DNA from: Diprion similis
Lineage: Eukaryota > Arthropoda > Insecta > Hymenoptera > Diprionidae
Reading direction: 5' to 3'
NCBI RefSeq assembly: GCF_021155765.1
Contig: NC_060109.1
Coordinates: forward strand, 1,017,001 to 1,081,000
Length of the DNA: 64,000 nucleotides
Positions 12,601 to 49,558 of this stretch are shown here, piece after piece. Positions within the stretch are counted from its first letter, which is position 1; every line of letters begins with the position of its first letter. The translations under genes were made by a program, and so were the position numbers. The notes beneath the pieces were generated by a model. The model had not been told where the DNA came from and made no database searches. It was given only the letters and a program-made list of their open reading frames with translations.

Positions 12601-13050
12601 AAATAGCGTAGGACCAGCAGCAGAGAAATGACGACGAAAATCATGAGTTTTTCGGCTGTAACTTTACAGGTGTTGCTCGCAGCGTATTGGGACTGCGTTT
12701 AATCGATTTCTCTCGCAAAATTACGTCGGAATAGTGCCCTACAGAATTAATTGCAGCACTTTTCAAAGTCGTCGAAATTTTCACCAAAAATGCAAAGGGG
12801 TTAGCCTTGGATTTTTTTTGGCCGAAAAATCTTTTGTCTGGGAATCGATTCGTATGACGTTTTCTAGACTAATTCGACGCCCAGGAACTCAGAAAACACA
12901 TCAAAAATAGCGTAGGACCAGCAGCAGAGAAATGACGACGAAAATCATGAGTTTTTCGGCTGTAACTTTACAGGTGTTGCTCGCAGCGTATTGGGACTGC
13001 GTTTAATCGATTTCTCTCGCAAAATTACGTCGGAATAGTGCCCTACAGAA

Positions 13051-14160
13051 TTATTTGCAGCGCTTTTCAAAGTCGTCGAAATTTTCACCAAAAATGCAAA
13101 GGGGTTAGCCTTGGATTTTTTTTGGCCGAAAAATCTTTTGTCTGGGAATCGATTCGTATGACGTTTTCTCGACTAATTCGACCTCCAGGAACTCAGAAAA
13201 CACATCAAAAATAGCGTAGGACCAGCAGCAGAGAAATGACGACGAAAATCATGAGTTTTTCGGCTGTAACTTTACAGGTGTTGCTCGCAGCGTATTGGGA
13301 CTACGTTTAATCGATTTCTCTCGCAAAATTACGTCGGAATAGTGCCCTACAGAATTAATTGCAGCACTTTTCAAAGTCGTCGAAATTTTCACCAAAAATG
13401 CAAAGGGGTTAGCCTTGGATTTTTTTTGGCCGAAAAATCTTTTGTCTGGGAATCGATTCGTGTGACGTTTTCTAGACTAATTCGACGCCCAGGAACTCAG
13501 AAAACACATCAGAAATAGCGTAGGACCAGCAGCAGAGAAATGACGACGAAAATCATGAGTTTTTCGGCTGTAACTTTACAGGTGTTGCTCGCAGCGTATT
13601 GGGACTGCGTTTAATCGATTTCTCTCGCAAAATTACGTCGGAATAGTGCCCTACAGAATTATTTGCAGCGCTTTTCAAAGTCGTCGAAATTTTCACCAAA
13701 AATGCAAAGGGGTTAGCCTTGGATTTTTTTTGGCCGAAAAATCTTTTGTCTGGGAATCGATTCGTATGACGTTTTCTCGACTAATTCGACCTCCAGGAAC
13801 TCAGAAAACACATCAAAAATAGCGTAGGACCAGCAGCAGAGAAATGACGACGAAAATCATGAGTTTTTCGGCTGTAACTTTACAGGTGTTGCTCGCAGCG
13901 TATTGGGACTGCGTTTAATCGATTTCTCTCGCAAAATTACGTCGGAATAGTGCCCTACAGAATTAATTGCAGCACTTTTCAAAGTCGTCGAAATTTTCAC
14001 CAAAAATGCAAAGGGGTTAGCCTTGGATTTTTTTTGGCCGAAAAATCTTTTGTCTGGGAATCGATTCGTGTGACGTTTTCTAGACTAATTCGACGCCCAG
14101 GAACTCAGAAAACACATCAGAAATAGCGTAGGACCAGCAGCAGAGAAATGACGACGAAAA
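13051..14160 (+). repeat. Dimeric higher-order repeat (608 bp) at the left of the array
   Basis: Two alternating monomer types repeat at 608 bases. One has TTATTTGCAGCG and ACCTCCAGG (13,051 and 13,659). The next carries TTCGTGTGACG (near 13,458 and 14,066). The shared variants in the same order point to duplication of a two-monomer unit. Confidence 0.75.
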
Positions 14161-14999
14161 TCATGAGTTTTTCGGCTGTAACTTTACAGGTGTTGCTCGC
14201 AGCGTATTGGGACTGCGTTTAATCGATTTCTCTCGCAAAATTACGTCGGAATAGTGCCCTACAGAATTAATTGCAGCACTTTTCAAAGTCGTCGAAATTT
14301 TCACCAAAAATGCAAAGGGGTTAGCCTTGGATTTTTTTTGGCCGAAAAATCTTTTGTCTGGGAATCGATTCGTATGACGTTTTCTAGACTAATTCGACGC
14401 CCAGGAACTCAGAAAACACATCAAAAATAGCGTAGGACCAGCAGCAGAGAAATGACGACGAAAATCATGAGTTTTTCGGCTGTAACTTTACAGGTGTTGC
14501 TCGCAGCGTATTGGGACTGCGTTTAATCGATTTCTCTCGCAAAATTACGTCGGAATAGTGCCCTACAGAATTAATTGCAGCACTTTTCAAAGTCGTCGAA
14601 ATTTTCACCAAAAATGCAAAGGGGTTAGCCTTGGATTTTTTTTGGCCGAAAAATCTTTTGTCTGGGAATCGATTCGTATGACGTTTTCTAGACTGATTCG
14701 ACGCCCAGGAACTCAGAAAACACATCAGAAATAGCGTAGGACCAGCAGCAGAGAAATGACGACGAAAATCATAAGTTTTTCGGCTGTAACTTTACAGGTG
14801 TTGCTCGCAGCGTATTGGGACTGCGTTTAATCGATTTCTCTCGCAAAATTACGTCGGAATAGTGCCCTACAGAATTAATTGCAGCACTTTTCAAAGTCGT
14901 CGAAATTTTCACCAAAAATGCAAAGGGGTTAGCCTTGGATTTTTTTTGGCCGAAAAATCTTTTGTCTGGGAATCGATTCGTATGACGTTTTCTAGACTA

Positions 15000-17900
15000 A
15001 TTCGACGCCCAGGAACTCAGAAAACACATCAAAAATAGCGTAGGACCAGCAGCAGAGAAATGACGACGAAAATCATGAGTTTTTCGGCTGTAACTTTACA
15101 GGTGTTGCTCGCAGCGTATTGGGACTGCGTTTAATCGATTTCTCTCGCAAAATTACGTCGGAATAGTGCCCTACAGAATTAATTGCAGCACTTTTCAAAG
15201 TCGTCGAAATTTTCACCAAAAATGCAAAGGGGTTAGCCTTGGATTTTTTTTGGCCGAAAAATCTTTTGTCTGGGAATCGATTCGTATGACGTTTTCTCGA
15301 CTAATTCGACGCCCAGGAACTCAGAAAACACATCAAAAATAGCGTAGGACCAGCAGCAGAGAAATGACGACGAAAATCATGAGTTTTTCGGCTGTAACTT
15401 TACAGGTGTTGCTCGCAGCGTATTGGGACTGCGTTTAATCGATTTCTCTCGCAAAATTACGTCGGAATAGTGCCCTACAGAATTAATTGCAGCACTTTTC
15501 AAAGTCGTCGAAATTTTCACCAAAAATGCAAAGGGGTTAGCCTTGGATTTTTTTTGGCCGAAAAATCTTTTGTCTGGGAATCGATTCGTATGACGTTTTC
15601 TAGACGAATTCGACGCCCAGGAACTCAGAAAACACATCAAAAATAGCGTAGGACCAGCAGCAGAGAAATGACGACGAAAATCATGAGTTTTTCGGCTGTA
15701 ACTTTACAGGTGTTGCTCGCAGCGTATTGGGACTGCGTTTAATCGATTTCTCTCGCAAAATTACGTCGGAATAGTGCCCTACAGAATTGATTGCAGCACT
15801 TTTCAAAGTCGTCGAAATTTTCACCAAAAATGCAAAGGGGTTAGCCTTGGATTTTTTTTGGCCGAAAAATCTTTTGTCTGGTAATCGATTCGTATGACGT
15901 TTTCTGGACTAATTCGACGCCCAGGAACTCAGAAAACACATCAAAAATAGCGTAGGACCAGCAGCAGAGAAATGACGACGAAAATCATGAGTTTTTCGGC
16001 TGTAACTTTACAGGTGTTGCTCGCAGCGTATTGGGACTGCGTTTAATCGATTTCTCTCGCAAAATTACGTCGGAATAGTGCCCTACAGAATTATTTGCAG
16101 CGCTTTTCAAAGTCGTCGAAATTTTCACCAAAAATGCAAAGGGGTTAGCCTTGGATTTTTTTTGGCCGAAAAATCTTTTGTCTGGGAATCGATTCGTATG
16201 ACGTTTTCTCGTCTAATTCGACCTCCAGGAACTCAGAAAACACATCAAAAATAGCGTAGGACCAGCAGCAGAGAAATGACGACGAAAATCATGAGTTTTT
16301 CGGCTGTAACTTTACAGGTGTTGCTCGCAGCGTATTGGGACTGCGTTTAATCGATTTCTCTCGCAAAATTACGTCGGAATAGTGCCCTACAGAATTAATT
16401 GCAGCACTTTTCAAAGTCGTCGAAATTTTCACCAAAAATGCAAAGGGGTTAGCCTTGGATTTTTTTTGGCCGAAAAATCTTTTGTCTGGGAATCGATTCG
16501 TATGACGTTTTCTCGACTAATTCGACGCCCAGGAACTCAGAAAACACATCAAAAATAGCGTAGGACCAGCAGCAGAGAAATGACGACGAAAATCATGAGT
16601 TTTTCGGCTGTAACTTTACAGGTGTTGCTCGCAGCGTATTGGGACTGCGTTTAATCGATTTCTCTCGCAAAATTACGTCGGAATAGTGCCCTACAGAATT
16701 AATTGCAGCACTTTTCAAAGTCGTCGAAATTTTCACCAAAAATGCAAAGGGGTTAGCCTTGGATTTTTTTTGGCCGAAAAATCTTTTGTCTGGGAATCGA
16801 TTCGTATGACGTTTTCTAGACTGATTCGACGCCCAGGAACTCAGAAAACACATCAAAAATAGCGTAGGACCAGCAGCAGAGAAATGACGACGAAAATCAT
16901 GAGTTTTTCGGCTGTAACTTTACAGGTGTTGCTCGCAGCGTATTGGGACTGCGTTTAATCGATTTCTCTCGCAAAATTACGTCGGAATAGTGCCCTACAG
17001 AATTAATTGCAGCACTTTTCAAAGTCGTCGAAATTTTCACCAAAAATGCAAACGGGTTAGCCTTGGATTTTTTTTGGTCGAAAAATCTTTTGTCTGGGAA
17101 TCGATTCGTATGACGTTTTCTAGACTAATTCGACGCCCAGGAACTCAGAAAACACATCAGAAATAGCGTAGGACCAGCAGCAGAGAAATGACGACGGAAA
17201 TCATGAGTTTTTCGGCTGTAACTTTACAGGTGTTGCTCGCAGCGTATTGGGACTGCGTTTAATCGATTTCTCTCGCAAAATTACGTCGGAATAGTGCCCT
17301 ACAGAATTAATTGCAGCACTTTTCGAAGTCGTCGAAATTTTCACCAAAAATGCAAAGGGGTTAGCCTTGGATTTTTTTTGGCCGAAAAATCTTTTGTCTG
17401 GGAATCGATTCGTATGACGTTTTCTAGACTAATTCGACGCCCAGGAACTCAGAAAACACATCAAAAATAGCGTAGGACCAGCAGCAGAGAAATGACGACG
17501 AAAATCATGAGTTTTTCGGCTGTAACTTTACAGGTGTTGCTCGCAGCGTATTGGGACTGCGTTTAATCGATTTCTCTCGCAAAATTACGTCGGAATAGTG
17601 CCCTACAGAATTGATTGCAGCACTTTTCAAAGTCGTCGAAATTTTCACCAAAAATGCAAAGGGGTTAGCCTTGGATTTTTTTTGGCCGAAAAATCTTTTG
17701 TCTGGGAATCGATTCGTATGACGTTTTCTAGACTAATTCGACGCCCAGGAACTCAGAAAACACATCAAAAATAGCGTAGGACCAGCAGCAGAGAAATGAC
17801 GACGAAAATCATGAGTTTTTCGGCTGTAACTTTACAGGTGTTGCTCGCAGCGTATTGGGACTGCGTTTAATCGATTTCTCTCGCAAAATTACGTCGGAAT

Positions 17901-20900
17901 AGTGCCCTACAGAATTATTTGCAGCGCTTTTCAAAGTCGTCGAAATTTTCACCAAAAATGCAAAGGGGTTAGCCTTGGATTTTTTTTGGCCGAAAAATCT
18001 TGCGTCTGGGAATCGATTCGTATGACGTTTTCTCGACTAATTCGACCTCCAGGAACTCAGAAAACACATCAAAAATAGCGTAGGACCAGCAGCAGAGAAA
18101 TGACGACGAAAATCATGAGTTTTTCGGCTGTAACTTTACAGGTGTTGCTCGCAGCGTATTGGGACTGCGTTTAATCGATTTCTCTCGCAAAATTACGTCG
18201 GAATAGTGCCCTACAGAATTAATTGCAGCACTTTTCAAAGTCGTCGAAATTTTCACCAAAAATGCAAAGGGGTTAGCCTTGGATTTTTTTTGGCCGAAAA
18301 ATCTTCTGTCTGGGAATCGATTCGTATGACGTTTTCTCGACTAATTCGACGCCCAGGAACTCAGAAAACACATCAAAAATAGCGTAGGACCAGCAGCAGA
18401 GAAATGACGACGAAAATCATGAGTTTTTCGGCTGTAACTTTACAGGTGTTGCTCGCAGCGTATTGGGACTGCGTTTAATCGATTTCTCTCGCAAAATTAC
18501 GTCGGAATAGTGCCCTACAGAATTAATTGCAGCACTTTTCAAAGTCGTCGAAATTTTCACCAAAAATGCAAAGGGGTTAGCCTTGGATTTTTTTTGGCCG
18601 AAAAATCTTTTGTCTGGGAATCGATTCGTATGACGTTTTCTAGACGAATTCGACGCCCAGGAACTCAGAAAACACATCAAAAATAGCGTAGGACCAGCAG
18701 CAGAGAAATGACGACGAAAATCATGAGGTTTTCGGCTGTAACTTTACAGGTGTTGCTCGCAGCGTATTGGGACTGCGTTTAATCGATTTCTCTCGCAAAA
18801 TTACGTCGGATTAGTGCCCTACAGAATTAATTGCAGCACTTTTCAAAGTCGTCGAAATTTTCACCAAAAATGCAAAGGGGTTAGCCTTGGATTTTTTTTG
18901 GCCGAAAAATCTTTTGTCTGGGAATCGATTCGTATGACGTTTTCTAGACTAATTCGACGCCCAGGAACTCAGAAAACACATCAAAAATAGCGTAGGACCA
19001 GCAGCAGAGAAATGACGACGAAAATCATGAGTTTTTCGGCTGTAACTTTACAGGTGTTGGTCGCAGCGTATTGGGACTGCGTTTAATCGATTTCTCTCGC
19101 AAAATTACGTCGGAATAGTGCCCTACAGAATTAATTGCAGCACTTTTCAAAGTCGTCGAAATTTTCACCAAAAATGCAAAGGGGTTAGCCTTGGATTTTT
19201 TTTGGCCGAAAAATCTTTTGTCTGGGAATCGATTCGTATGACGTTTTCTCGACTAATTCGACGCCCAGGAACTCAGAAAACACATCAAAAATAGCGTAGG
19301 ACCAGCAGCAGAGAAATGACGACGAAAATCATGAGTTTTTCGGCTGTAACTTTACAGGTGTTGCTCGCAGCGTATTGGGACTGCGTTTAATCGATTTCTC
19401 TAGCAAAATTACGTCGGAATAGTGCCCTACAGAATTAATTGCAGCACTTTTCAAAGTCGTCGGAATTTTCACCAAAAATGCAAAGGGGTTAGCCTTGGAT
19501 TTTTTTTGGCCGAAAAATCTTTTGTCCGGGGATCGATTCGTATGACGTTTTCTAGACTAATTCGACGCCCAGGAACTCAGAAAACACATCAAAAATAGCG
19601 TAGGACCAGCAGCAGAGAAATGACGACGAAAATCATGAGTTTTTCGGCTGTAACTTTACAGGTGTTGCTCGCAGCGTATTGGGACTGCGTTTAATCGATT
19701 TCTCTCGCAAAATTACGTCGGAATAGTGCCCTACAGAATTGATTGCAGCACTTTTCAAAGTCGTCGAAATTTTCACCAAAAATGCAAAGGGGTTAGCCTT
19801 GGATTTTTTTTGGCCGAAAAATCTTTTGTCTGGGAATCGATTCGTATGACGTTTTCTAGACTAATTCGACGCCCAGGAACTCAGAAAACACATCAAAAAT
19901 AGCGTAGGACCAGCAGCAGAGAAATGACGACGAAAATCATGAGTTTTTCGGCTGTAACTTTACAGGTGTTGCTCGCAGCGTATTGGGACTGCGTTTAATC
20001 GATTTCTCTCGCAAAATTACGTCGGAATAGTGCCCTACAGAATTATTTGCAGCGCTTTTCAAAGTCGTCGAAATTTTCACCAAAAATGCAAAGGGGTTAG
20101 CCTTGGATTTTTTTTGGCCGAAAAATCTTTTGTCTGGGAATCGATTCGTATGACGTTTTCTCGACTAATTCGACCTCCAGGAACTCAGAAAACACATCAA
20201 AAATAGCGTAGGACCAGCAGCAGAGAAATGACGACGAAAATCATGAGTTTTTCGGCTGTAACTTTACAGGTGTTGCTCGCAGCGTATTGGGACTGCGTTT
20301 AATCGATTTCTCTCGCAAAATTACGTCGGAATAGTGCCCTACAGAATTAATTGCAGCACTTTTCAAAGTCGTCGAAATTTTCACCAAAAATGCAAAGGGG
20401 TTAGCCTTGGATTTTTTTTGGCCGAAAAATCTTTTGTCTGGGAATCGATTCGTATGACGTTTTCTCGACTAATTCGACGCCCAGGAACTCAGAAAACACA
20501 TCAAAAATAGCGTAGGACCAGCAGCAGAGAAATGACGACGAAAATCATGAGTTTTTCGGCTGTAACTTTACAGGTGTTGCTCGCAGCGTATTGGGACTGC
20601 GTTTAATAGATTTCTCTCGCAAAATTACGTCGGAATAGTGCCCTACAGAATTAATTGCAGCACTTTTCAAAGTCGTCGAAATTTTCACCAAAAATGCAAA
20701 GGGGTTAGCCTTGGATTTTTTTTGGCCGAAAAATCTTTTGTCTGGGAATCGATTCGTATGACGTTTTCTAGACTGATTCGACGCCCAGGAACTCAGAAAA
20801 CACATCAAAAATAGCGTAGGACCAGCAGCAGAGAAATGACGACGAAAATCATGAGTTTTTCGGCTGTAACTTTACAGGTGTTGCTCGCAGCGTATTGGGA

Positions 20901-21420
20901 CTGCGTTTAATCGATTTCTCTCGCAAAATTACGTCGGAATAGTGCCCTACAGAATTAATTGCAGCACTTTTCAAAGTCGTCGAAATTTTCACCAAAAATG
21001 CAAACGGGTTAGCCTTGGATTTTTTTTGGCCGAAAAATCTTTTGTCTGGGAATCGATTCGTATGACGTTTTCTAGACTAATTCGACGCCCAGGAACTCAG
21101 AAAACACATCAGAAATAGCGTAGGACCAGCAGCAGAGAAATGACGACGGAAATCATGAGTTTTTCGGCTGTAACTTTACAGGTGTTGCTCGCAGCGTATT
21201 GGGACTGCGTTTAATCGATTTCTCTCGCAAAATTACGTCGGAATAGTGCCCTACAGAATTAATTGCAGCACTTTTCGAAGTCGTCGAAATTTTCACCAAA
21301 AATGCAAAGGGGTTAGCCTTGGATTTTTTTTGGCCGAAAAATCTTTTGTCTGGGAATCGATTCGTATGACGTTTTCTAGACTAATTCGACGCCCAGGAAC
21401 TCAGAAAACACATCAAAAAT
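15000..21420 (+). repeat. Nested higher-order repeats with 6-, 7-, 10- and 13-monomer offsets
   Basis: The variant pair TTGATTGCAG followed one monomer later by TTATTTGCAGCG occurs at 15,787/16,091, 17,611/17,915 and 19,739/20,043, giving offsets of 1824 (6 monomers) and 2128 (7 monomers). The variant AACGGGTT occurs at 17,051 and 21,003, offset 3952 (13 monomers). The variant TAGACGAATTCG occurs at about 15,601 and 18,641, offset 3040 (10 monomers). The offsets are mutually consistent with successive duplications followed by loss or gain of one monomer. Confidence 0.8.
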
Positions 21421-22679
21421 AGCGTAGGACCAGCAGCAGAGAAATGACGACGAAAATCATGAGTTTTTCGGCTGTAACTTTACAGGTGTTGCTCGCAGCG
21501 TATTGGGACTGCGTTTAATCGATTTCTCTCGCAAAATTACGTCGGAATAGTGCCCTACAGAATTAATTGCAGCACTTTTCAAAGTCGTCGAAATTTTCAC
21601 CAAAAATGCAAAGGGGTTAGCCTTGGATTTTTTTTGGCCGAAAAATCTTTCGTCTGGGAATCGATTCGTATGACGTTTTCTAGACTAATTCGACGCCCAG
21701 GAACTCAGAAAACACATCAAAAATAGCGTAGGACCAGCAGCAGAGAAATGACGACGAAAATCATGAGTTTTTCGGCTGTAACTTTACAGGTGTTGCTCGC
21801 AGCGTATTGGGACTGCGTTTAATCGATTTCTCTCGCAAAATTACGTCGGAATAGTGCCCTACAGAATTAATTGCAGCACTTTTCAAAGTCGTCGAAATTT
21901 TCACCAAAAATGCAAAGGGGTTAGCCTTGGATTTTTTTTGGCCGAAAAATCTTTTGTCCGGGAATCAATTCGTATGACGTTTTCTAGACTAATTCGACGC
22001 CCAGGAACTCAGAAAACACATCAAAAATAGCGTAGGACCAGCAGCAGAGAAATGACGACGAAAATCATGAGTTTTTCGGCTGTAACTTTACAGGTGTTGC
22101 TCGCAGCGTATTGGGACTGCGTTTAATCGATTTCTCTCGCAAAATTACGTCGGAATAGTGCCCTACAGAATTAATTGCAGCACTTTTCAAAGTCGTCGAA
22201 ATTTTCACCAAAAATGCAAAGGGGTTAGCCTTGGATTTTTTTTGGCCGAAAAATCTTTTGTCTGGGAATCGATTCGTATGACGTTTTCTAGACTAATTCG
22301 ACGCCCAGGAACTCAGAAAACACATCAAAAATAGCGTAGGACCAGCAGCAGAGAAATGACGACGAAAATCATGAGTTTTTCGGCTGTAACTTTACAGGTG
22401 TTGCTCGCAGCGTATTGGGACTGCGTTTAATCGATTTCTCTCGCAAAATTACGTCGGAATAGTGCCCTACAGAATTAATTGCAGCACTTTTCAAAGTCGT
22501 CGAAATTTTCACCAAAAATGCAAAGGGGTTAGCCTTGGATTTTTTTTGGCCGAAAAATCTTTTGTCTGGGAATCGATTCGTATGACGTTTTCTAGACTAA
22601 TTCGACGCCCAGGAACTCAGAAAACACATCAGAAATAGCGTAGGACCAGCAGCAGAGAAATGACGACAAAAATCATGAG

Positions 22680-25600
22680 TTTTTCCGCTGTAACTTTACA
22701 GGTGTTGCTCGCAGCGTATTGGGACTGCGTTCAATCGATTTCTCTCGCAAAATTACGTCGGAATAGTGCCCTACAGAATTAATTGCAGCACTTTTCAAAG
22801 TCGTCGAAATTTTCACCAAAAATGCAAAGGGGTTAGCCTTGGATTTTTTTCGGCCGAAAAATCTTTTGTCTGGGAATCGATTCGTATGACGTTTACTAGA
22901 CTAATTCGACGCCCAGGAACTCAGAAAACACATCAAAAATAGCGTAGGACCAGCAGCAGAGAAATGACGACGAAAATCATGAGTTTTTCGGCTGTAACTT
23001 TACAGGTGTTGCTCGCAGCGTATTGGGACTGCGTTTAATCGATTTCTCTCGCAAAATTACGTCGGAATAGTGCCCTACAGAATTAATTGCAGCACTTTTC
23101 AAAGTCGTCGAAATTTTCACCAAAAATGCAAAGGGGTTAGCCTTGGATTTTTTTTGGCTGAAAAATCTTTTGTCTGGGAATCGATTCGTATGACGTTTTC
23201 TAGACTAATTCGACGCCCAGGAACTCAGAAAACACATCAAAAATAGCGTAGGACCAGCAGCAGAGAAATGACGACGAAAATCATGAGTTTTTCGGCTGTA
23301 ACTTCACAGGTGTTGCTCGCAGCGTATTGGGACTGCGTTTAATCGATTTCTCTCGCAAAATTACGTCGGAATAGTGCCCTACAGAATTAATTGCAGCACT
23401 TTTCGAAGTCGTCGAAATTTTCACCAAAAATGCAAAGGGGTTAGCCTTGGATTTTTTTTGGCCGAAAAATCTTTTGTCTGGGAATCGATTCGTATGACGT
23501 TTTCTAGACTAATTCGACGCCCAGGAACTCAGAAAACACATCAAAAATAGCGTAGGACCAGCAGCAGAGAAATGACGACGAAAATCATGAGTTTTTCGGC
23601 TGTAACTTTACAGGTGTTGCTCGCAGCGTATTGGGACTGCGTTTAATCGATTTCTCTCGCAAAATTACGTCGGCATAGTGCCCTATAGAATTAATTGCAG
23701 CACTTTTCAAAGTCGTCGAAATTTTCACCAAAAATGCAAAGGGGTTAGCCTTGGATTTTTTTTGGCCGAAAAATCTTTTGTCTGGGAATCGATTCGTATG
23801 ACGTTTTCTCGACTAATTCGACGCCCAGGAACTCAGAAAACACATCAAAAATAGCGTAGGACCAGCAGCAGAGAAATGACGACGAAAATCATGAGTTTTT
23901 CGGCTGTAACTCTACAGGTGTTGCTCGCAGCGTATTGGGACTGCGTTTTATCGATTTCTCTCGCAAAATTACGTCGGAATAGTGCCCTACAGAATTAATT
24001 GCAGCACTTTTCAAAGTCGTCGAAATTTTCACCAAAAATGCAAAGGGGTTAGCCTTGGATTTTTTTTGGCCGAAAAATCTTTTGTCTGGGAATCGATTCG
24101 TATGACGTTTTCTAGACTAATTCGACGCTCAGGAACTCAGAAAACACATCAAAAATAGCGTAGGACCAGCAGCAGAGAAATGACGACGAAAATCATGAGT
24201 TTTTCGGCTGTAACTTTACAGGTGTTGCTCGCAGCGTATTGGGACTGCGTTTAATCGATTTCTCTCGCAAAATTACGTCGGAATAGTGCCCTACAGAATT
24301 AATTGCAGCGCTTTTCAAAGTCGTCGAAATTTTCACCAAAAATGCAAAGGGGTTAGCCTTGGATTTTTTTTGGCCGAAAAATCTTTTGTCTGGGAATCGA
24401 TTCGTATGACGTTTTCTAGACTAATTCGACGCCCAGGAACTCAGAAAACACATCAAAAATAGCGTAGGACCAGCAGCAGAGAAATGACGACGAAAATCAT
24501 GAGTTTTTCGGCTGTCACTTTACAGGTGTTGCTCGCAGCGTATTGGGACTGCGTTTAATCGATTTCTCTCGCAAAATTACGTCGGAATAGTGCCCTACAG
24601 AATTAATTGCAGCACTTTTCAAAGTCGTCGAAATTTTCACCAAAAATGCAAAGGGGTTAGCCTTGGATTTTTTTTGGCCGAAAAATCTTTTGTCTGGGAA
24701 TCGATTCGTATGACGTTTTCTAGACTAATTCGACGCCCAGGAACTCAGAAAACACATCAAAAATAGCGTAGGACCAGCAGCAGAGAAATGACGACGAAAA
24801 TCATGAGTTTTTCGGCTGTAACTTTACAGGTGTTGCTCGCAGCGTATTGGGACTGCGTTTAATCGATTTCTCTCGCAAAATTACGTCGGAATAGTGCCCT
24901 ACAGAATTAATTGCAGCACTTTTCAAAGTCGTCGAAATTTTCACCAAAAATGCAAAGGGGTTAGCCTTGGATTTTTTTTGGCCGAAAAATCTTTTGTCTG
25001 GGAATCGATTTGTATGACGTTTTCTAGACTAATTCGACGCCCAGAAACTCAGAAAACACAAAAAAAATAGCGTAGGACCAGCAGCAGAGAAATGACGACG
25101 AAAATCATGAGTTTTTCGGCTGTAACTTTACAGGTGTTGCTCGCAGCGTATTGAGACTGCGTTTAATCGATTTCTCTCGCAAAATTACGTCGGAATAGTG
25201 CCCTACAGAATTAATTGCAGCACTTTTCAAAGTCGTCGAAATTTTCACCAAAAATGCAAAGGGGTTAGCCTTGGATTTTTTTTGGCCGAAAAATCTTTTG
25301 TCTGGGAATCGATTCGTATGACGTTTTCTAGACTAATTCGACGCCCAGGAACTCAGAAAACACATCAAAAATAGCGTAGGACCAGCAGCAGAGAAATGAC
25401 GACGAAAATCATGAGTTTTTCGGCTGTAACTTTACAGGTGTTGCTCGCAGCGTATTGGGACTGCGTTTAATCGATTTCTCTCGCAAAATTACGTCGGAAT
25501 AGTGCCCTACAGAATTAATTGCAGCACTTTTCAAAGTCGTCGAAATTTTCACCAAAAATGCAAAGGGGTTAGCCTTGGATTTTTTTTGGCCGAAAAATCT

Positions 25601-31600: not shown

Positions 31601-31800
31601 GCAGCACTTTTCAAAGTCGTCGAAATTTTCACCAAAAATGCAAAGGGGTTAGCCTTGGATTTTTTTTGGCCGAAAAATCTTTTGTCTGGGAATCGATTCG
31701 TATGACGTTTTCTCGACTAATTCGACGCCCAGGAACTCAGAAAACACATCAAAAATAGCGTAGGACCAGCAGCAGAGAAATGACGACGAAAATCATGAGT
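22680..31800 (+). repeat. Three tandem copies of a 3,040-bp (10-monomer) higher-order repeat
   Basis: At least eight private variants recur at exactly 3,040 bases. TTTTTGGCTG ends at 23,160, 26,200 and 29,240. CTTTTCGAAG, CGGCATAGTGCCCTATAG, AACTCTACAGG, ACGCTCAGG, CGATTTGTATG, CCCAGAAACTC and CACAAAAAAAATAG follow in the same order in each copy. The copies differ from each other at only a few sites. For example, TCAATCGATT and CGGCCG-preceded-by-C occur in copies 1 and 2 only, TTGAGACTGC in copies 1 and 2 only, and GTCTCGG at about 30,167 in copy 3 only. They are therefore much closer to each other than neighbouring monomers are. Confidence 0.92.
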
Positions 31801-37800: not shown

Positions 37801-40800
37801 TCGACGCCCAGGAACTCAGAAAACACATCAAAAATAGCGTAGGACCAGCAGCAGAGAAATGACGACGAAAATCATGAGTTTTTCGGCTGTAACTTTACAG
37901 GTGTTGCTCGCAGCGTATTGGGACTGCGTTTAATCGATTTCTCTCGCAAAATTACGTCGGAATAGTGCCCTACAGAATTAATTGCAGCACTTTTCAAAGT
38001 CGTCGAAATTTTCACCAAAAATGCAAAGGGGTTAGCCTTGGATTTTTTTTGGCCGAAAAATCTTTTGTCTGGGAATCGATTCGTATGACGTTTTCTAGAC
38101 TAATTCGACGCCCAGGAACTCAGAAAACACATCAAAAATAGCGTAGGACCAGCAGCAGAGAAATGACGACGAAAATCATGAGTTTTTCGGCTGTAACTTT
38201 ACAGGTGTTGCTCGCAGCGTATTGGGACTGCGTTTAATCGATTTCTCTCGCAAAATTACGTCGGAATAGTGCCCTACAGAATTAATTGCAGCACTTTTCA
38301 AAGTCGTCGAAATTTTCACCAAAAATGCAAAGGGGTTAGCCTTGGATTTTTTTTGGCCGAAAAATCTTTTGTCTGGGATTCGATTCGTATGACGTTTTCT
38401 AGACTAATTCGACGCCCAGGAACTCAGAAAACACATCAAAAATAGCGTAGGACCAGCAGCAGAGAAATGACGACGAAAATCATGAGTTTTTCGGCTGTAA
38501 CTTTACAGGTGTTGCTCGCAGCGTATTGGGACTGCGTTTAATCGATTTCTCTCGCAAAATTACGTTGGAACAGTGCCCTACAGAATTAATTGCAGCACTT
38601 TTCAAAGTCGTCGAAATTTTCACCAAAAATGCAAAGGGGTTAGCCTTGGATTTTTTTTGGCCGAAAAATCTTTTGTCTGGGAATCGATTCGTATGACGTT
38701 TTCTAGACTAATTCGACGCCCAGGAACTCAGAAAACACATCAAAAATAGCGTAGGACCAGCAGCGGAGAAATGACGACGAAAATCATGAGTTTTTCGGCT
38801 GTAACTTTACAGGTGTTGCTCGCAGCGTATTGGGACTGCGTTTAATCGATTTCTCTCGCAAAATTACGTCGGAATAGTGCCCTACAGAATTAATTGCAGC
38901 ACTTTTCAAAGTCGTCGAAATTTTCACCAAAAATGCAAAGGGGTTAGCCTTGGATTTTTTTTGGCCGAAAAATCTTTTGTCTGGGAATCGATTCGTATGA
39001 CGTTTTCTAGACTAATTCGACGCCCAGGAACTCAGAAAACACATCAGAAATAGCGTAGGACCAGCAGCAGAGAAATGACGACGAAAATCATGAGTTTTTC
39101 GGCTGTAACTTTACAGGTGTTGCTCGCAGCGTATTGGGACTGCGTTTAATCGATTTCTCTCGCAAAATTACGTCGGAATAGTGCCCTACAGAATTAATTG
39201 CAGCACTTTTCAAAGTCGTCGAAATTTTCACCAAAAATGCAAAGGGGTTAGCCTTGGATTTTTTTTGGCCGAAAAATCTTTTGTCTGGGAATCGATTCGT
39301 ATGACGTTTTCTTGACTAATTCGACGCCCAGGAACTCAGAAAACACATCAAAAATAGCGTAGGACCAGCAGCAGAGAAATGACGACGAAAATCATGAGTT
39401 TTTCGGCTGTAACTTTACAGGTGTTGCTCGCAGCGTATTGGGACTGCGTTTCATCGATTTCTCTCGCAAAATTACGTCGGAATAGTGCCCTACAGAATTA
39501 ATTGCAGCACTTTTCAAAGTCGTCGAAATTTTCACCAAAAATGCAAAGGGGTTAGCCTTGGATTTTTTTTGGCCGAAAAATCTTCTGTCTGGGAATCGAT
39601 TCGTATGACGTTTTCTAGACTAATTCGACGCCCAGGAACTCAGAAAACACATCAAAAATAGCGTAGGACCAGCAGCAGAGAAATGACGACGAAAATCATG
39701 AGTTTTTCGGCTGTAACTTTACAGGTGTTGCTCGCAGCGTATTGGGACTGCGTTTAATCGATTTCTCTCGCAAAATTACGTCGGAATAGTGCCCTACAGA
39801 ATTAATTGCAGCACTTTTCAAAGTCGTCGAAATTTTCACCAAAAATGCAAAGGGGTTAGCCTTGGATTTTTTTTGGCCGAAAAATCTTTTGTCTGGGAAT
39901 CGATTCGTATGACGTCTTCTAGACTAATTCGACGCCCAGGAACTCAGAAAACACATCAAAAATAGCGTAGGACCAGCAGCAGAGAAATGACGACGAAAAT
40001 CATGAGTTTTTCGGCTGTAACTTTACAGGTGTTGCTCGCAGCGTATTGGGACTGCGTTTAATCGATTTCTCTCGCAAAATTACGTCGGAATAGTGCCCTA
40101 CAGAATTAATTGCAGCACTTTTCGAAGTCGTCGAAATTTTCACCGAAAATGCAAAGGGGTTAGCCTTGGATTTTTTTTGGCCGAAAAATCTTTTGTCTGG
40201 GAATCGATTCGTATGACGTTTTCTAGACTAATTCGACGCCCAGGAACTCAGAAAACACATCAAAAATAGCGTAGGACCAGCAGCAGAGAAATGACGACGA
40301 AAATCATGAGTTTTTCGGCTGTAACTTTACAGGTGTTGCTCGCAGCGTATTGGGACTGCGTTTAATCGATTACTCTCGCGAAATTACGTCGGAATAGTGC
40401 CCTACAGAATTAATTGCAGCACTTTTCAAAGTCGTCGAAATTTTCACCAAAAATGCAAAGAGGTTAGCCTTGGATTTTTTTTGGCCGAAAAATCTTTTGC
40501 CTGGGAATCGATTCGTATGACGTTTTCTAGACTAATTTGACGCCCAGGAACTCAGAAAACACATCAGAAATAGCGTAGGACCAGCAGCAGAGAAATGACG
40601 ACGAAAATCATGAGTTTTTCGGCTGTAACTTTACAGGTGTTGCTCGCAGCGTATTGGGACTGCGTTTAATCGATTTCTCTCGCAAAATCACGTCGGAATA
40701 GTGCCCTACAGAATTAATTGCAGCACTTTTCAAAGTCGTCGAAATTTTCACCAAAAATGCAAAGGGGTTAGCCTTGGATTTTTTTTGGCCGAAAAATCTT

Positions 40801-41199
40801 TTGTCTGGGAATCGATTCGTATGACGTTTTCTAGACTAATTCGACGCCCAGGAACTCAGAAAACACATCAAAAATAGCGTAGGACCAGCAGCAGAGAAAT
40901 GACGACGAAAATCATGAGTTTTTCGGCTGTAACTTTACAGGTGTTGCTCGCAGCGTATTGGGACTGCGTTTAATCGATTTCTCTCGCAAAATTACGTCGG
41001 AATAGTGCCCTACAGAATTAATTGCAGCACTTTTCAAAGTCGTCGAAATTTTCACCAAAAATGCAAAGGGGTTAGCCTTGGATTTTTTTTGGCTGAAAAA
41101 TCTTTTGTCTGGGAATCGATTCGTATGACGTTTTCTAGACTAATTCGACGCCCAGGAACTCAGAAAACACATCAAAAATAGCGTAGGACCAGCAGCAGA

Positions 41200-44100
41200 G
41201 AAATGACGACGAAAATCATGAGTTTTTCGGCTGTAACTTTACAGGTGTTGCTCGCAGCGTATTGGGACTGCGTTTAATCGATTTCTCTCGCAAAATTACG
41301 TCGGAATAGTGCCCTACAGAATTAATTGCAGCACTTTTCAAAGTCGTCGAAATTTTCACCAAAAATGCAAAGGGGTTAGCCTTGGATTTTTTTTGGCCGA
41401 AAAATCTTTTGTCTGGGAATCGATTCGTATGACGTTTTCTAGACTAATTCGACGCCCAGGAACTCAGAAAACACATCAAAAATAGCGTAGGACCAGCAGC
41501 AGAGAAATGACGACGAAAATCATGAGTTTTTCGGCTGTAACTTCACAGGTGTTGCTCGCAGCGTATTGGGACTGCGTTTAATCGATTTCTCTCGCGAAAT
41601 TACGTCGGAATAGTGCCCTACAGAATTAATTGCAGCACTTTTCAAAGTCGTCGAAATTTTCACCAAAAATGCAAAGGGGTTAGCCTTGGATTTTTTTTGG
41701 CCGAAAAATCTTTTGTCTGGGAATCGATTCGTATGACGTTTTCTAGACTAATTCGACGCCCAGGAACTCAGAAAACACATCAGAAATAGCGTAGGACCAG
41801 CAGCAGAGAAATGACGACGAAAATCATGAGTTTTTCGGCTGTAACTTTACAGGTGTTGCTCGCAGCGTATTGGGACTGCGTTTAATCGATTTCTCTAGCA
41901 AAATTACGTCGGAATAGTGCCTTACAGAATTAATTGCAGCACTTTTCAAAGTCGTCGAAATTTTCACCAAAAATGCAAAGGGGTTAGCCTTGGATTTTTT
42001 TTGGCCGAAAAATCTTTTGTCTGGGAATCGATTCGTATGACGTTTTCTAGACTAATTCGACGCCCAGGAACTCAGAAAACACATCAAAAATAGCGTAGGA
42101 CCAGCAGCAGAGAAATGACGACGAAAATCATGAGTTTTTCGGCTGTAACTTTACAGGTGTTGCTCGCAGCGTATTGGGACTGCGTTTAATCGATTTCTCT
42201 CGCAAAATTACGTCGGAATAGTGCCCTACAGAATTAATTGCAGCACTTTTCAAAGTCGTCGAAATTCTCACAAAAAATGCAAAGGGGTTAGCCTTGGATT
42301 TTTTTTGGCCGAAAAATCTTTTGTCTGGGAATCGATTCGTATGACGTTTTCTAGACTAATTCGACGCCCAGGAACTCAGAAAACACATCAAAAATAGCGT
42401 AGGACCAGCAGCAGAGAAATGACGACGGAAATCATGAGTTTTTCGGCTGTAACTTTACAGGTGTTGCTCGCAGCGTATTGGGACTGCGTTTAATCGATTT
42501 CTCTCGCAAAATTACGTCGGAATAGTGCCCTACAGAATTAATTGCAGCACTTTTCAAAGTCGTCGAAATTTTCACCAAAAATGCAAAGGGGTTAGCCTTG
42601 GATTTTTTTTGGCCGAAAAATCTTTTGTCTGGGAATCGATTCGTATGACGTTTTCTAGACTAATTCGACGCCCAGGAACTCAGAAAACACATCAGAAATA
42701 GCGTAGGACCAGCAGCAGAGAAATGACGACGAAAATCATGAGTTTTTCGGCTGTAACTTTACAGGTGTTGCTCGCAGCGTATTGGGACTGCGTTTAATCG
42801 ATTTCTCTCGCAAAATTACGTCGGAATAGTGCCCTACAGAATTAATTGCAGCACTTTTCAAAGTCGTCGAAATTTTCACCAAAAATGCAAAGGGGTTAGC
42901 CTTGGATTTTTTTTGGCCGAAAAATCTTTTGTCTGGGAATCGATTCGTATGACGTTTTCTAGACTAATTCGACGCCCAGGAACTCAGAAAACACATCAAA
43001 AATAGCGTAGGACCAGCAGCAGAGAAATGACGACGAAAATCATGAGTTTTTCGGCTGTAACTTCACAGGTGTTGCTCGCAGCGTATTGGGACTGCGTTTA
43101 ATCGATTTCTCTCGCGAAATTACGTCGGAATAGTGCCCTACAGAATTAATTGCAGCACTTTTCAAAGTCGTCGAAATTTTCACCAAAAATGCAAAGGGGT
43201 TAGCCTTGGATTTTTTTTGGCCGAAAAATCTTTTGTCTGGGAATCGATTCGTATGACGTTTTCTAGACTAATTCGACGCCCAGGAACTCAGAAAACACAT
43301 CAGAAATAGCGTAGGACCAGCAGCAGAGAAATGACGACGAAAATCATGAGTTTTTCGGCTGTAACTTTACAGGTGTTGCTCGCAGCGTATTGGGACTGCG
43401 TTTAATCGATTTCTCTAGCAAAATTACGTCGGAATAGTGCCCTACAGAATTAATTGCAGCACTTTTCAAAGTCGTCGAAATTTTCACCAAAAATGCAAAG
43501 GGGTTAGCCTTGGATTTTTTTTGGCCGAAAAATCTTTTGTCTGGGAATCGATTCGTATGACGTTTTCTAGACTAATTCGACGCCCAGGAACTCAGAAAAC
43601 ACATCAAAAATAGCGTAGGACCAGCAGCAGAGAAATGACGACGAAAATCATGAGTTTTTCGGCTGTAACTTTACAGGTGTTGCTCGCAGCGTATTGGGAC
43701 TGCGTTTAATCGATTTCTCTCGCAAAATTACGTCGGAATAGTGCCCTACAGAATTAATTGCAGCACTTTTCAAAGTCGTCGAAATTTTCACCAAAAATGT
43801 AAAGGGGTTAGCCTTGGATTTTTTTTGGCCGAAAAATCTTTTGTCTGGGAATCGATTCGTATGACGTTTTCTAGACTAATTCGACGCCCAGGAACTCAGA
43901 AAACACATCAAAAATAGCGTAGGACCAGCAGCAGAGAAATGACGACGAAAATCATGAGTTTTTCGGCTGTAACTTTACAGGTGTTGCTCGCAGCGTATTG
44001 GGACTGCGTTTAATCGATTTCTCTCGCAAAATTACGTCGGAATAGTGCCCTACAGAATTAATTGCAGCACTTTTCAAAGTCGTCGAAATTTTCACCAAAA

Positions 44101-45100
44101 ATGCAAAGGGGTTAGCCTTGGATTTTTTTTGGCCGAAAAATCTTTTGTCTGGGAATCGATTCGTATGACGTTTTCTAGACTAATTCGACGCCCAGGAACT
44201 CAGAAAACACATCAGAAATAGCGTAGGACCAGCAGCAGAGAAATGACGACGAAAATCATGAGTTTTTCGGCTGTAACTTTACAGGTGTTGCTCGCAGCGT
44301 ATTGGGACTGCGTTTAATCGATTTCTCTCGCAAAATTACGTCGGAATAGTGCCCTACAGAATTAATTGCAGCACTTTTCAAAGTCGTCGAAATTTTCACC
44401 AAAAATGCAAAGGGGTTAGCCTTGGATTTTTTTTGGCCGAAAAATCTTTTGTCTGGGAATCGATTCGTATGACGTTTTCTAGACTAATTCGACGCCCAGG
44501 AACTCAGAAAACACATCAAAAATAGCGTAGGACCAGCAGCAGAGAAATGACGACGAAAATCATGAGTTTTTCGGCTGTAACTTCACAGGTGTTGCTCGCA
44601 GCGTATTGGGACTGCGTTTAATCGATTTCTCTCGCGAAATTACGTCGGAATAGTGCCCTACAGAATTAATTGCAGCACTTTTCAAAGTCGTCGAAATTTT
44701 CACCAAAAATGCAAAGGGGTTAGCCTTGGATTTTTTTTGGCCGAAAAATCTTTTGTCTGGGAATCGATTCGTATGACGTTTTCTAGACTAATTCGACGCC
44801 CAGGAACTCAGAAAACACATCAGAAATAGCGTAGGACCAGCAGCAGAGAAATGACGACGAAAATCATGAGTTTTTCGGCTGTAACTTTACAGGTGTTGCT
44901 CGCAGCGTATTGGGACTGCGTTTAATCGATTTCTCTAGCAAAATTACGTCGGAATAGTGCCCTACAGAATTAATTGCAGCACTTTTCAAAGTCGTCGAAA
45001 TTTTCACCAAAAATGCAAAGGGGTTAGCCTTGGATTTTTTTTGGCCGAAAAATCTTTTGTCTGGGAATCGATTCGTATGACGTTTTCTAGACTAATTTGA
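41200..45100 (+). repeat. Tandem copies of a 1,520-bp (5-monomer) higher-order repeat
   Basis: An ordered set of private variants repeats at exactly 1,520 bases. AACTTCACAGG occurs near 41,540, 43,060 and 44,580, CTCGCGAAAT near 41,594, 43,114 and 44,634, and TCTCTAGCAAAA near 41,893, 43,413 and 44,933. CATCAGAAATAG variants fall in matching monomers. Three copies are clear. Confidence 0.88.
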
Positions 45101-46239
45101 CGCCCAGGAACTCAGAAAACACATCAAAAATAGCGTAGGACCAGCAGCAGAGAAATGACGACGAAAATCATGAGTTTTTCGGCTGTAACTTTACAGGTGT
45201 TGCTCGCAGCGTATTGGGACTGCGTTTAATCGATTTCTCTCGCAAAATTACGTCGGAATAGTGCCCTACAGAATTAATTGCAGCACTTTTCAAAGTCGTC
45301 GAAATTTTCACCAAAAATGCAAAGGGGTTAGCCTTGGATTTTTTTTGGCCGAAAAATCTTTTGTCTAGGAATCGATTCGTATGACGTTTTCTAGACTAAT
45401 TCGACGCCCAGGAACTCAGAAAACACATCAAAAATAGCGTAGGACCAGCAGCAGAGAAATGACGACGAAAATCATGAGTTTTTCGGCTGTAACTTTACAG
45501 GTGTTGCTCGCAGCGTATTGGGACTGCGTTTAATCGATTTCTCTCGCAAAATTACTTCGGAATAGTGCCCTACAGAATTAATTGCAGCACTTTTCAAAGT
45601 CGTCGAAATTTTCACCAAAAATGCAAAGGGGTTAGCCTTGGATTTTTTTTGGCCGAAAAATCTTTTGTCTGGGAATCGATTCGTATGACGTTTTCTAGTC
45701 TAATTCGACGCCCAGGAACTCAGAAAACACATCAAAAATAGCGTAGGACCAGCAGCAGAGAAATGACGACGAAAATCATGAGTTTTTCGGCTGTAACTTT
45801 ACAGGTGTTGCTCGCAGCGTCTTGGGACTGCGTTCAATCGATTTCTCTCGCAAAATTACGTTGGAATAGTGCCCTACAGAATTAATTGCAGCACTTTTCA
45901 AAGTCGTCGAAATTTTCACCAAAAATGCAAAGGGGTTAGCCTTGGATTTTTTTTGGCCGAAAAATCTTTTGTCTGGGAATCGATTCGTATGACGTTTTCT
46001 AGACTAATTCGACGCCCAGGAACTCAGAAAACACATCAAAAATAGCGTAGGACCAGCAGCAGAGAAATGACGACGAAAATCATGAGTTTTTCGGCTGTAA
46101 CTTTACAGGTGTTGCTCGCAGCGTATTGGGACTGCGTTTAATCGATTTCTCTCGCAAAATTACGTCGGAATAGTGCCCTACAGAATTAATTGCAGCACTT
46201 TTCAAAGTCGTCGAAATTTTCACCAAAAATGCAAAGGGG

Positions 46240-47180
46240 TTAGCCTTGGATTTTTTTGGGCCGAAAAATCTTTTGTCTGGGAATCGATTCGTATGACGTT
46301 TTCTAGACTAATTCGACGCCCAGGAACTCAGAAAACACATCAAAAATAGCGTAGGACCAGCAGCAGAGAAATGACGACGAAAATCATGAGTTTTTCGGCT
46401 GTAACTTTACAGGTGTTGCTCGCAGCGTATTGGGACTGCGTTTAATCGATTTCTCTCGCAAAATTACGTCGGAATAGTGCCCTACAGAATTAATTGCAGC
46501 ACTTTTCAAAGTCGTCGAAATTTTCACCAAAAATGCAAAGGGGTTAGCCTTGGATTTTTTTTGGCCGAAAAATCTTTTGTCTGGGAATCGATTCGTATGA
46601 CGTTTTCTAGACTAATTCGACGCCCAGGAACTCAGAAAACACATCAAAAATAGCGTAGGACCAGCAGCAGAGAAATGACGACGAAAATCATGAGTTTTTC
46701 GGCTGTAACTTTACAGGTGTTGCTCGCAGCGTATTGGGACTGCGTTTAATCGATTTCTCTCGCAAAATTACGTCGGAATAGTGCCCTACAGAATTAATTG
46801 CAGCACTTTTCAAAGTCGTCGAAATTTTCACCAAAAATGCAAAGGGGTTAGCCTTGGATTTTTTTGGGCCGAAAAATCTTTTGTCTGGGAATCGATTCGT
46901 ATGACGTTTTCTAGACTAATTCGACGCCCAGGAACTCAGAAAACACATCAAAAATAGCGTAGGACCAGCAGCAGAGAAATGACGACGAAAATCATGAGTT
47001 TTTCGGCTGTAACTTTACAGGTGTTGCTCGCAGCGTATTGGGACTGCGTTTAATCGATTTCTCTCGCAAAATTACGTCGGAATAGTGCCCTACAGAATTA
47101 ATTGCAGCACTTTTCAAAGTCGTCGAAATTTTCACCAAAAATGCAAAGGGGTTAGCCTTGGATTTTTTTGGGCCGAAAAA
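46240..47180 (+). repeat. Local spread of a GGG-variant monomer
   Basis: Three monomers carry the variant with seven T then GGGCCG instead of eight T then GGCCG, near 46,249, 46,857 and 47,161, at offsets of 608 and 304. This indicates a small recent one- or two-monomer duplication. Confidence 0.6.
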
Positions 47181-49558
47181 TCTTTTGTCTGGGAATCGAT
47201 TCGTATGACGTTTTCTAGACTAATTCGACGCCCAGGAACTCAGAAAACACATCAAAAATAGCGTAGGACCAGCAGCAGAGAAATGACGACGAAAATCATG
47301 AGTTTTTCGGCTGTAACTTTACAGGTGTTGCTCGCAGCGTATTGGGACTGCGTTTAATCGATTTCTCTCGCAAAATTACGTCGGAATAGTGCCCTACAGA
47401 ATTAATTGCAGCACTTTTCAAAGTCGTCGAAATTTTCACCAAAAATGCAAAGGGGTTAGCCTTGGATTTTTTTTGGCCGAAAAATCTTTTGTCTGGGAAT
47501 CGATTCGTATGACGTCTTCTAGACTAATTCGACGCCCAGGAACTCAGAAAACACATCAAAAATAGCGTAGGACCAGCAGCAGAGAAATGACGACGAAAAT
47601 CATGAGTTTTTCGGCTGTAACTTTACAGGTGTTGCTCGCAGCGTATTGGGACTGCGTTTAATCGATTTCTCTCGCAAAATTACGTCGGAATAGTGCCCTA
47701 CAGAATTAATTGCAGCACTTTTCAAAGTCGTCGAAATTTTCACCAAAAATGCAAAGGGGTTAGCCTTGGATTTTTTTTGGCCGAAAAATCTTTTGTCTGG
47801 GAATCGATTCGTATGACGTTTTCTAGACTAATTCGACGCCCAGGAACTCAGAAAACACATCAAAAATAGCGTAGGACCAGCAGCAGAGAAATGACGACGA
47901 AAATCATGAGTTTTTCGGCTGTAACTTTACAGGTGTTGCTCGCAGCGTATTGGGACTGCGTTTAATCGATTTCTCTCGCAAAATTACGTCGGAATAGTGC
48001 CCTACAGAATTAATTGCAGCACTTTTCAAAGTCGTCGAAATTTTCACCAAAAATGCAAAGGGGTTAGCCTTGGATTTTTTTTGGCCGAAAAATCTTTTGT
48101 CTAGGAATCGATTCGTATGACGTTTTCTAGACTAATTCGACGCCCAGGAACTCAGAAAACACATCAAAAATAGCGTAGGACCAGCAGCAGAGAAATGACG
48201 ACGAAAATCATGAGTTTTTCGGCTGTAACTTTACAGGTGTTGCTCGCAGCGTATTGGGACTGCGTTTAATCGATTTCTCTCGCAAAATTACGTCGGAATA
48301 GTGCCCTACAGAATTATCTGCAGCACTTTTCAAAGTCGTCGAAATTTTCACCAAAAATGCAAAGGGGTTAGCCTTGGATTTTTTTTGGCCGAAAAATCTT
48401 TTGTCTGGGAATCGATTCGTATGACGTTTTCTAGACTAATTCGACGCCCAGGAACTCAGAAAACACATTAAAAATAGCGTAGGACCAGCAGCAGAGAAAT
48501 GACGACGAAAATCATGAGTTTTTCGGCTGTAACTTTACAGGTGTTGCTCGCAGCGTATTGGGACTGCGTTTAATCGATTTCTCTCGCAAAATCACGTCGG
48601 AATAGTGCCCTACAGAATTAATTGCAGCACTTTTCAAAGTCGTCGAAATTTTCACCAAAAATGCAAAGGGGTTAGCCTTGGATTTTTTTTGGCCGAAAAA
48701 TCTTTTGTCTGGGAATCGATTGGTATGACGTTTTCTAGACTAATTCGACGCCCAGGAACTCAGAAAACACATCAAAAATAGCGTAGGACCAGCAGCAGAG
48801 AAATGACGACGAAAATCATGAGTTTTTCGGCTGTAACTTTACAGGTGTTGCTCGCAGCGTATTGGGACTGCGTTTAATCGATTTCTCTCGCAAAATTACG
48901 TCGGAATAGTGCCCTACAGAATTAATTGCAGCACTTTTCAAAGTCGTCGAAATTTTCACCAAAAATGCAAAGGGGTTAGCCTTGGATTTTTTTTGGCCGA
49001 AAAATCTTTTGTCTGGGAATCGATTTGTATGACGTTTTCTAGACTAATTCGACGCCCAGGAACTCAGAAAACACATCAAAAATAGCGTAGGACCAGCAGC
49101 AGAGAAATGACGACGAAAATCATGAGTTTTTCGGCTGTAACTTCACAGGTGTTGCTCGCAGCGTATTGGGACTGCGTTTAATCGATTTCTCTCGCAAAAT
49201 TACGTCGGAATAGTGCCCTACAGAATTAATTGCAGCACTTTTCAAAGTCGTCGAAATTTTCACCAAAAATGCAAAGGGGTTAGCCTTGGATTTTTTTTGG
49301 CCGAAAAATCTTTTGTCTGGGAATCGATTCGTATGACGTTTTCTAGACTAATTCGACGCCCAGGAACTCAGAAAACACATCAAAAATAGCGTAGGACCAG
49401 CAGCAGAGAAATGACGACGAAAATCATGAGTTTTTCGGCTGTAACTTTACAGGTGTTGCTCGCAGCGTATTGGGACTGCGTTTAATCGATTTCTCTCGCA
49501 AAATTACGTCGGAATAGTGCCCTACAGAATGAATTGCAGCACTTTTCAAAGTCGTCGA

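Follow-up and report, generated by a model that had tools for sequence, protein, structure and literature searches.

The question raised by a 64,000-nucleotide stretch of the Diprion similis genome (contig NC_060109.1, here C5:1017001-1081000 of a 269-Mb genome, and referred to as the window) is why a long tandem array should hold its 304-bp unit length almost without exception when most of its monomers differ from one another by substitutions. An earlier, sequence-only reading of the window had offered two answers, fast homogenisation or a constrained monomer length, the latter for example through nucleosome phasing. Our analyses indicate that the fixed length is mostly what is expected of a recently copied and well homogenised satellite, and that the surprise is a retrotransposon, related to telomere-targeting ones, that is specialised on one short site of this satellite. 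We consider it probable that the two belong in a single account, in which an amplified and homogenised satellite, with its unit length set by founder copies, was adopted as a new target by a SART/TRAS-like element that had previously been directed at the telomere.

The array is real. Tandem Repeats Finder (TRF) gave a single array at period 304 (12472-49734, 122.6 copies, 98% matches, 0% insertions or deletions, hereafter indels), and the anchor AAATAGCGTA occurred 122 times, on the + strand only (shuffle mean 0.10). As the sequence-only reading had it, there are 121 periods with a net deviation of one base: 120 of the 121 anchor spacings are 304 and one is 303, and the distance from the first anchor at 12601 to the last at 49384 is indeed 120 x 304 + 303. 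The anchored alignment of 12601-49540 (~121.5 monomers, stretches without net length change being treated as ungapped) contained 241 substitution cells and 97 distinct substitutions versus one indel, a single T missing from a run of eight (T8) in the 303-bp unit starting at 37529. The earlier statements that most monomers carry substitutions (of the 120 full 304-bp units, 12 match the consensus exactly and 108 do not) and that indels are nearly absent from the core are thus both borne out. The many compensating indels that were named as a possible refutation were looked for, and the alignment gave one indel in total, with the proviso that a 27-bp stretch at 16198 with four mismatches could conceal a compensated pair. 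Core monomers are ~99% identical to the consensus, with a mean pairwise difference of 3.8 of 304 and 76 distinct sequences among 122 units, and decayed monomers of 75-88% identity carry the family out to ~12061 and ~49971, which is the pattern of a homogenised core with decayed edges. The features of the array are as follows.

12061..12600, + strand: decayed monomers of the upstream edge, 75-78% identity, with indels (consensus blastn, alignment).
12601..49564, + strand: homogenised core of the 304-bp satellite, ~121.6 head-to-tail monomers in one orientation (TRF, anchors, alignment; last matching base by eye).
12794..12808, + strand: first core copy of AAAGGGGTTAGCCTT, at which the retrotransposon is inserted in other parts of the genome (exact match; occupied sites at other loci).
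22937..32056, + strand: three successive 10-monomer blocks of 3,040 bp each with matching variants (monomer comparison).
37529..37831, + strand: the only 303-bp monomer, its T8 run short by one T, just downstream of the retrotransposon target site (spacings, alignment).
49565..49971, + strand: decayed monomers of the downstream edge, with indels (consensus blastn, alignment).

Among monomers 34-53, 16 of the 20 deviate from the consensus and are nevertheless identical to the monomer ten further on, six of them also at lag 20, and the mean difference is 3.06 at lag 10 versus 3.81 overall. This pattern is a multi-monomer tandem duplication within the array; apart from lag 10, similarity shows no clear fall with distance. 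No stop-to-stop frame of 110 or more amino acids lies inside the window array, and long head-to-tail arrays of this non-coding unit are present at several loci, as befits satellite DNA. No Rfam match for a ribozyme or structured RNA was obtained over 12400-14200, and a structured RNA was rejected as a candidate, the first monomer folding no better than its shuffles (z 0.34 and -0.45 for the two strands).

A genome search with the monomer, which the sequence-only reading had proposed, placed the window array as one of the arrays of an abundant family. A 15-bp monomer word has 16,286 + 18,273 = 34,559 exact occurrences genome-wide (reversed control 2), which corresponds to ~10.5-10.8 Mb or ~4% of the genome if one such word per monomer of 304-312 bp is assumed. 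Further 304-bp arrays are found on C2, C3, C5, C10 and C11, among others, those on C2 and C3 and a second one on C11 having been covered in part, and the subfamilies have units of 304, 312 and 341-342 bp. When seven subfamily consensuses were compared with that of the 304-bp unit, one differed by 18 substitutions without any gap and the other six by 28-54 substitutions with 0-2 gaps. At C1:117-151 kb, the first 100 matches listed give 99 spacings, of which 69 measure 312 bp, 11 measure 309, six 313 and one 311, the other 12 being double units. This array (C1:116922-151541, L047) lies ~117 kb from a (TTAGG)n contig end and has a recurring 309/312/313-bp unit pattern that resembles a higher-order repeat. 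At C11:7694348-7756974 (L023-L025, L031, L032), two 304-bp subfamilies ~6-7% apart are divided by a retrotransposon copy, and no indel separates them in the pieces compared. Four monomer words retrieved no named satellite family with this monomer from openly licensed literature, the three papers in which any of the words occurs being on other subjects, to judge by their titles.

With regard to the two answers offered earlier, homogenisation or recent amplification fits and a constraint on length does not. The former is indicated by the low divergence, the 76 distinct sequences among the 122 units, the 10-monomer tandem block and the low-identity monomers at the two edges of the array; the latter is contradicted by family arrays at 312 and 341-342 bp, by the one array that mixes 309, 311, 312 and 313, and by the spread of length variants. 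Unit length is therefore not constant across the family. In eight array segments (~671 monomers) there were 575 distinct non-fixed substitutions, from which 24 substitutions fixed within single segments (19, 1, 1 and 3) are excluded, and 10 distinct indels. Of the indels, five were confined to a single monomer and five were shared, a split like the 273/302 of the substitutions (Fisher p = 1.0), and the copy numbers attained by length variants of sister 304-bp arrays were 9, 6, 4, 3 and 3. Since indels are common to several monomers as often as substitutions are, nothing was seen that stops a length variant from spreading. In favor of a constraint are the equal-length subfamily consensuses, up to 54 substitutions apart with no gap, and the fact that indels are fewer in cores than in decayed copies (10 indels to 575 substitutions in cores versus 65 gap events to 1108 substitutions in decayed copies, p = 8e-5; 26 of 32 rows, with L007, which overlaps L006, dropped), a contrast that is overstated because 41 of the 65 gap events, at positions 193-226, are largely repeats of one 304/312 difference. 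A length lock of the monomer is thus not supported, and we infer that the regularity results from recent block amplification and exchange, the unit length being that of the founder of each array.

The best-surviving alternative is that the regularity is a matter of youth only, in that little divergence and few slippage-prone runs would leave few indels to be expected and no homogenising process would be needed to explain the length. The window's one indel per 97 substitutions has p = 0.42 at an assumed indel/substitution ratio of 2% and p = 0.046 at 5%, that indel falls in the T8 run, and monomers far apart in the array are no less similar than near ones, as would be seen following a burst. 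However, p drops to 7e-4 at an assumed neutral ratio of 10%; the element copies L040 and L041 yielded one gap and 21 mismatches, too few to supply a neutral ratio. In addition, many variants are common to several monomers and a 10-monomer block was duplicated, so that exchange between monomers evidently continues. Youth by itself is a serious competitor, although the odds are somewhat against it, and we prefer amplification together with exchange.

The retrotransposon came to light at the ends of arrays. Two sister arrays end at the same monomer position, after GGGGTTAGCCTT, and foreign DNA starts there. In the sister array on C5 this DNA is a non-long-terminal-repeat (non-LTR) retrotransposon with a frame of at least 1024 amino acids that encodes an endonuclease (PF14529, 4.3e-21) and a reverse transcriptase (PF00078, 5.7e-35), followed by the 3' end and a poly(A) tail joined to AAGGCTAACCCC. 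On C11 the array gives way to a related copy at its 5' end, where a frame stays open for at least 681 amino acids and reaches the locus end; the 3' end of this copy lies ~7.05 kb further on, joined to GGGGTTAGCCTT, which makes the element ~7 kb. As in SART and TRAS elements, endonuclease and reverse transcriptase are encoded in the second open reading frame and the 3' end carries poly(A). The exact 3' end of the element was found at 13 places on nine contigs (reversed-pattern control 0), a count outside which copies with diverged 3' ends fall. Of six places matching the poly(A)-site pattern, two (L037, L042) were A-runs within satellite monomers with no element.

Twelve of the 13 exact 3' ends are located at the 15-bp satellite site AAAGGGGTTAGCCTT, eight in the sense of the satellite and four antisense. 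Seven copies continue as poly(A)-AAGGGGTTAGCC (satellite sense; reversed-pattern control 0), the eighth sense copy was read directly and reaches the site after a longer tail, and the four antisense copies continue as poly(A)-AAGGCTAACC (reversed-pattern control 0). The hosts of the antisense copies are 304-bp units (~97, 94 and 90% identity) and a 312-bp unit (~82%). The three copies that were read on both sides all show a target duplication of 12-15 bp, at the same site and in both orientations: the antisense, 5'-truncated L041 and L040 have AAGGCTAACCCCTTT on both flanks, and the sense copy on C11 has GGGGTTAGCCTT on both flanks, up to AAAGGGGTTAGCCTT given the tail. The chance of an insertion falling on such a position is ~1e-4. 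Accordingly, most copies are at one target and carry its duplication, as is the case for site-specific non-LTR elements. The 8 versus 4 split gives no significant orientation preference (p = 0.39). The thirteenth copy, C7:9863076 (L045), is outside the satellite, and its surroundings, judged by eye, read in one frame like the endonuclease of another retroelement. Two element 3' ends, C2:13743777 and C2:13748827, are separated by 5,050 bp, have poly(A) tails of the same length and are possibly a duplicated element and satellite block; in view of this, it is likely that at least 11 of the 12 insertions at the site were independent, the two C2 copies perhaps being one duplicated insertion. We do not claim special conservation for the target site. 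It forms the longest invariant run in the eight subfamily consensuses, but most of those loci were located through its sequence, and in 26 decayed copies identified independently of it the site window ranks 85 of 304 for conservation.

Evidence for the origin of this lineage was obtained from the endonuclease and from more distant copies. For the first 231 residues of the C5 frame, the best solved-structure match was the TRAS1 endonuclease (1.7e-7), followed by R1Bm (0.044). Diverged 3'-end copies (81-85%) sit near contig ends, and both contig ends that were read (C1 start and C10 end) consist of (TTAGG)n. In all three of the relatives that were read (C2:15874, C4:10724 and C3:18982147), poly(A) is joined to GGTTAGGTTAGG repeats, that is, to telomeric (TTAGG)n; two of them share the GCGATAACAAA end of the satellite copies and the third has GCGATATCAAA. 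Five other relatives, with 3' ends 87-94% similar, are inside contigs (C1:16025116, C2:2315249, C3:18788850, C11:4856207 and C8:15570348). At the core of the satellite target site is GGTTAG, which resembles the telomere repeat. A requirement for GTTAG has been reported for the TRAS1 endonuclease (PMC7265360), and SART and TRAS are reported to cut TTAGG between T and A (PMC4700185). The satellite lineage, with 12 of 13 exact 3' ends at the satellite site, was not seen in (TTAGG)n, whereas the three relatives that were read lie there, and it is therefore classed as SART/TRAS-like rather than as a member of that group. Because there are relatives in TTAGG repeats and the site contains GGTTAG, a telomere-targeting lineage most likely switched its target to the satellite site; the opposite change, from satellite to telomere, is possible.

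We propose that the 304-bp monomer spread through recent block amplification and exchange between copies, and that each array would have taken over the unit length of its founder without any policing of that length, others of the family having settled at 312 or 341-342 bp. Such arrays would present the target site about every 304 bp and may thereby offer a safe and harmless landing niche (34,559 exact sites). The element's endonuclease would nick at the CCTT ends of AAAGGGGTTAGCCTT (after 5'-CCTT), on either strand, the freed T-rich end would serve as primer for reverse transcription, which would begin at the poly(A) tail, and insertion would duplicate the target site. With AAGG at its start and CCTT at its end, the site could be nicked first on either strand, and insertions in both orientations would therefore be expected.

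Several points weigh against this account. The window contains 116 exact copies of AAAGGGGTTAGCCTT, none of them occupied, and so the retrotransposon tells us nothing direct about the window array. The palindromic symmetry of the site is weak, with matches in 4 of 7 pairs (8 of 14 positions; chance ~0.07), which makes the reason given for the two orientations tentative. The three telomeric relatives were chosen for their closeness to contig ends, and the targets of the five contig-internal relatives could differ from both satellite and telomere. The putative kinship with SART/TRAS and the suggested direction of the switch are drawn from the targets, the 3' end and a single comparison of endonucleases. 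Finally, cores are poorer in indels than decayed copies, which may leave room for weak selection or biased repair.

The element and the regularity of the arrays might also be connected more closely, if the endonuclease drove satellite turnover: breaks at the site would start unequal exchange, expanding and homogenising arrays, and the rare length variants would be scars of repair. Breaks made by R2 are reported to drive copy gain in Drosophila ribosomal DNA (rDNA) (PMC10266012), which would serve as a model. In line with this idea, six of seven distinct indel types in array cores fall within positions 193-226 of the monomer, an interval that takes in the target, the nick and the T8 run, and one C11 array ends exactly at the site, adjoining DNA without a match to the element parts compared. 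However, two of those six indel types are plain length changes of T8, the T run alone could form a hot spot, and the counts are small; the C11 end is one of several array edges, the others lying elsewhere, and the window array has no insertion. We regard this as an unlikely explanation. It is also quite improbable that monomer length is under selection, for example through two nucleosomes phased per unit, with indel-bearing monomers being purged. The ratios of 1 indel to 97 distinct substitutions in the window and 10 to 575 in the eight segments would agree with it, as would several subfamily consensuses that are 18-54 substitutions apart without a gap and some A/T dinucleotide periodicity at 9.5-11 bp (3 of 500 base shuffles were as strong), but the family has arrays of 312 and 341-342 bp and units mixed from 309 to 313 bp, length variants gain copies, and the two halves of the monomer fail to align, for which reason a two-fold structure (304 = 2 x 152) was rejected. 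That the retrotransposon is not satellite-targeting and its copies were simply carried along when arrays amplified or moved, as the equal poly(A) of the two C2 copies 5,050 bp apart might suggest, is largely refuted and very hard to credit, since the 13 copies are spread over nine contigs, three have target duplications, and the copies examined are not uniform in orientation, 5' truncation point (L040, L041), satellite subfamily hit or poly(A) length, which runs from 16 to 26 with one >40.

The array adjoins a gene, since an exon with a sulfotransferase domain is located at 51117-51596, 1.1 kb past the downstream array edge; the gene (window 50527-51596, start codon judged by eye) apparently begins no more than ~0.6 kb from the satellite. 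Exons with DM13 and TRAP-alpha domains are on the minus strand at window 9295-9699 and 57148-57648. Flanking sequence shared between arrays, as if carrying them, was rejected as a candidate, the comparison of 12 flank segments at E 1e-6 having given no match. Separately, the AT-rich contig C45 (25,279 bp; L035) carries COX1 and exceeds the usual insect mitochondrial genome of ~16 kb; some of its sequence may be duplicated or wrapped around. Together with the (TTAGG)n at contig ends, this contig is what an insect genome would be likely to show. COX1 was matched again at C7:8182164-8182700 (L036), on an 11-Mb contig; this second match has five TGA codons and is probably a nuclear copy of mitochondrial DNA.

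The satellite resembles insect satellite families generally in its long head-to-tail arrays, several subfamilies, decayed edges and homogenised cores, and such families include arrays between genes. Its regular period need not imply selection on length. Site-specific retrotransposons use ribosomal RNA (rRNA) genes, small RNA genes, microsatellites and telomere repeats. The R1 elements of insect 28S rRNA genes are like the present one in bearing an endonuclease and in occupying one site of a tandem repeat, with a target duplication of ~14 bp, but here the target is a satellite and not rDNA, and the R1Bm endonuclease was the weaker match (0.044). To our knowledge, a change of target by a retrotransposon lineage is seldom caught in the act. 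In the present genome both states seem to coexist, in that copies at telomeres and copies in the satellite have 3' ends that are recognisably akin and target sites with a GGTTAG core in common, which makes the target switch testable.

Among the matches listed, in openly licensed literature, the sole precedent for a satellite-specific non-LTR element was the YURE elements of Ciona (PMC4640811). These are likewise non-LTR retrotransposons found, on occasion, in a satellite repeat, which is U2-derived; unlike the element described here, they are grouped with restriction-like-endonuclease elements, have relatively weak specificity and use a gene-derived satellite. The nearer parallel is with SART1 and TRAS1 of Bombyx mori, which are telomere-repeat-specific (PMC7265360, PMC4700185) and have two open reading frames, an endonuclease and a reverse transcriptase, poly(A) and strict site specificity. 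The three diverged relatives resemble them as well, since they lie in (TTAGG)n and their poly(A) is followed by GGTTAGG, as expected from the cut between T and A reported for SART and TRAS. In contrast, the main lineage uses a satellite with units of 304-312 bp, where it inserts at one site, in either orientation, and duplicates 12-15 bp of the target.

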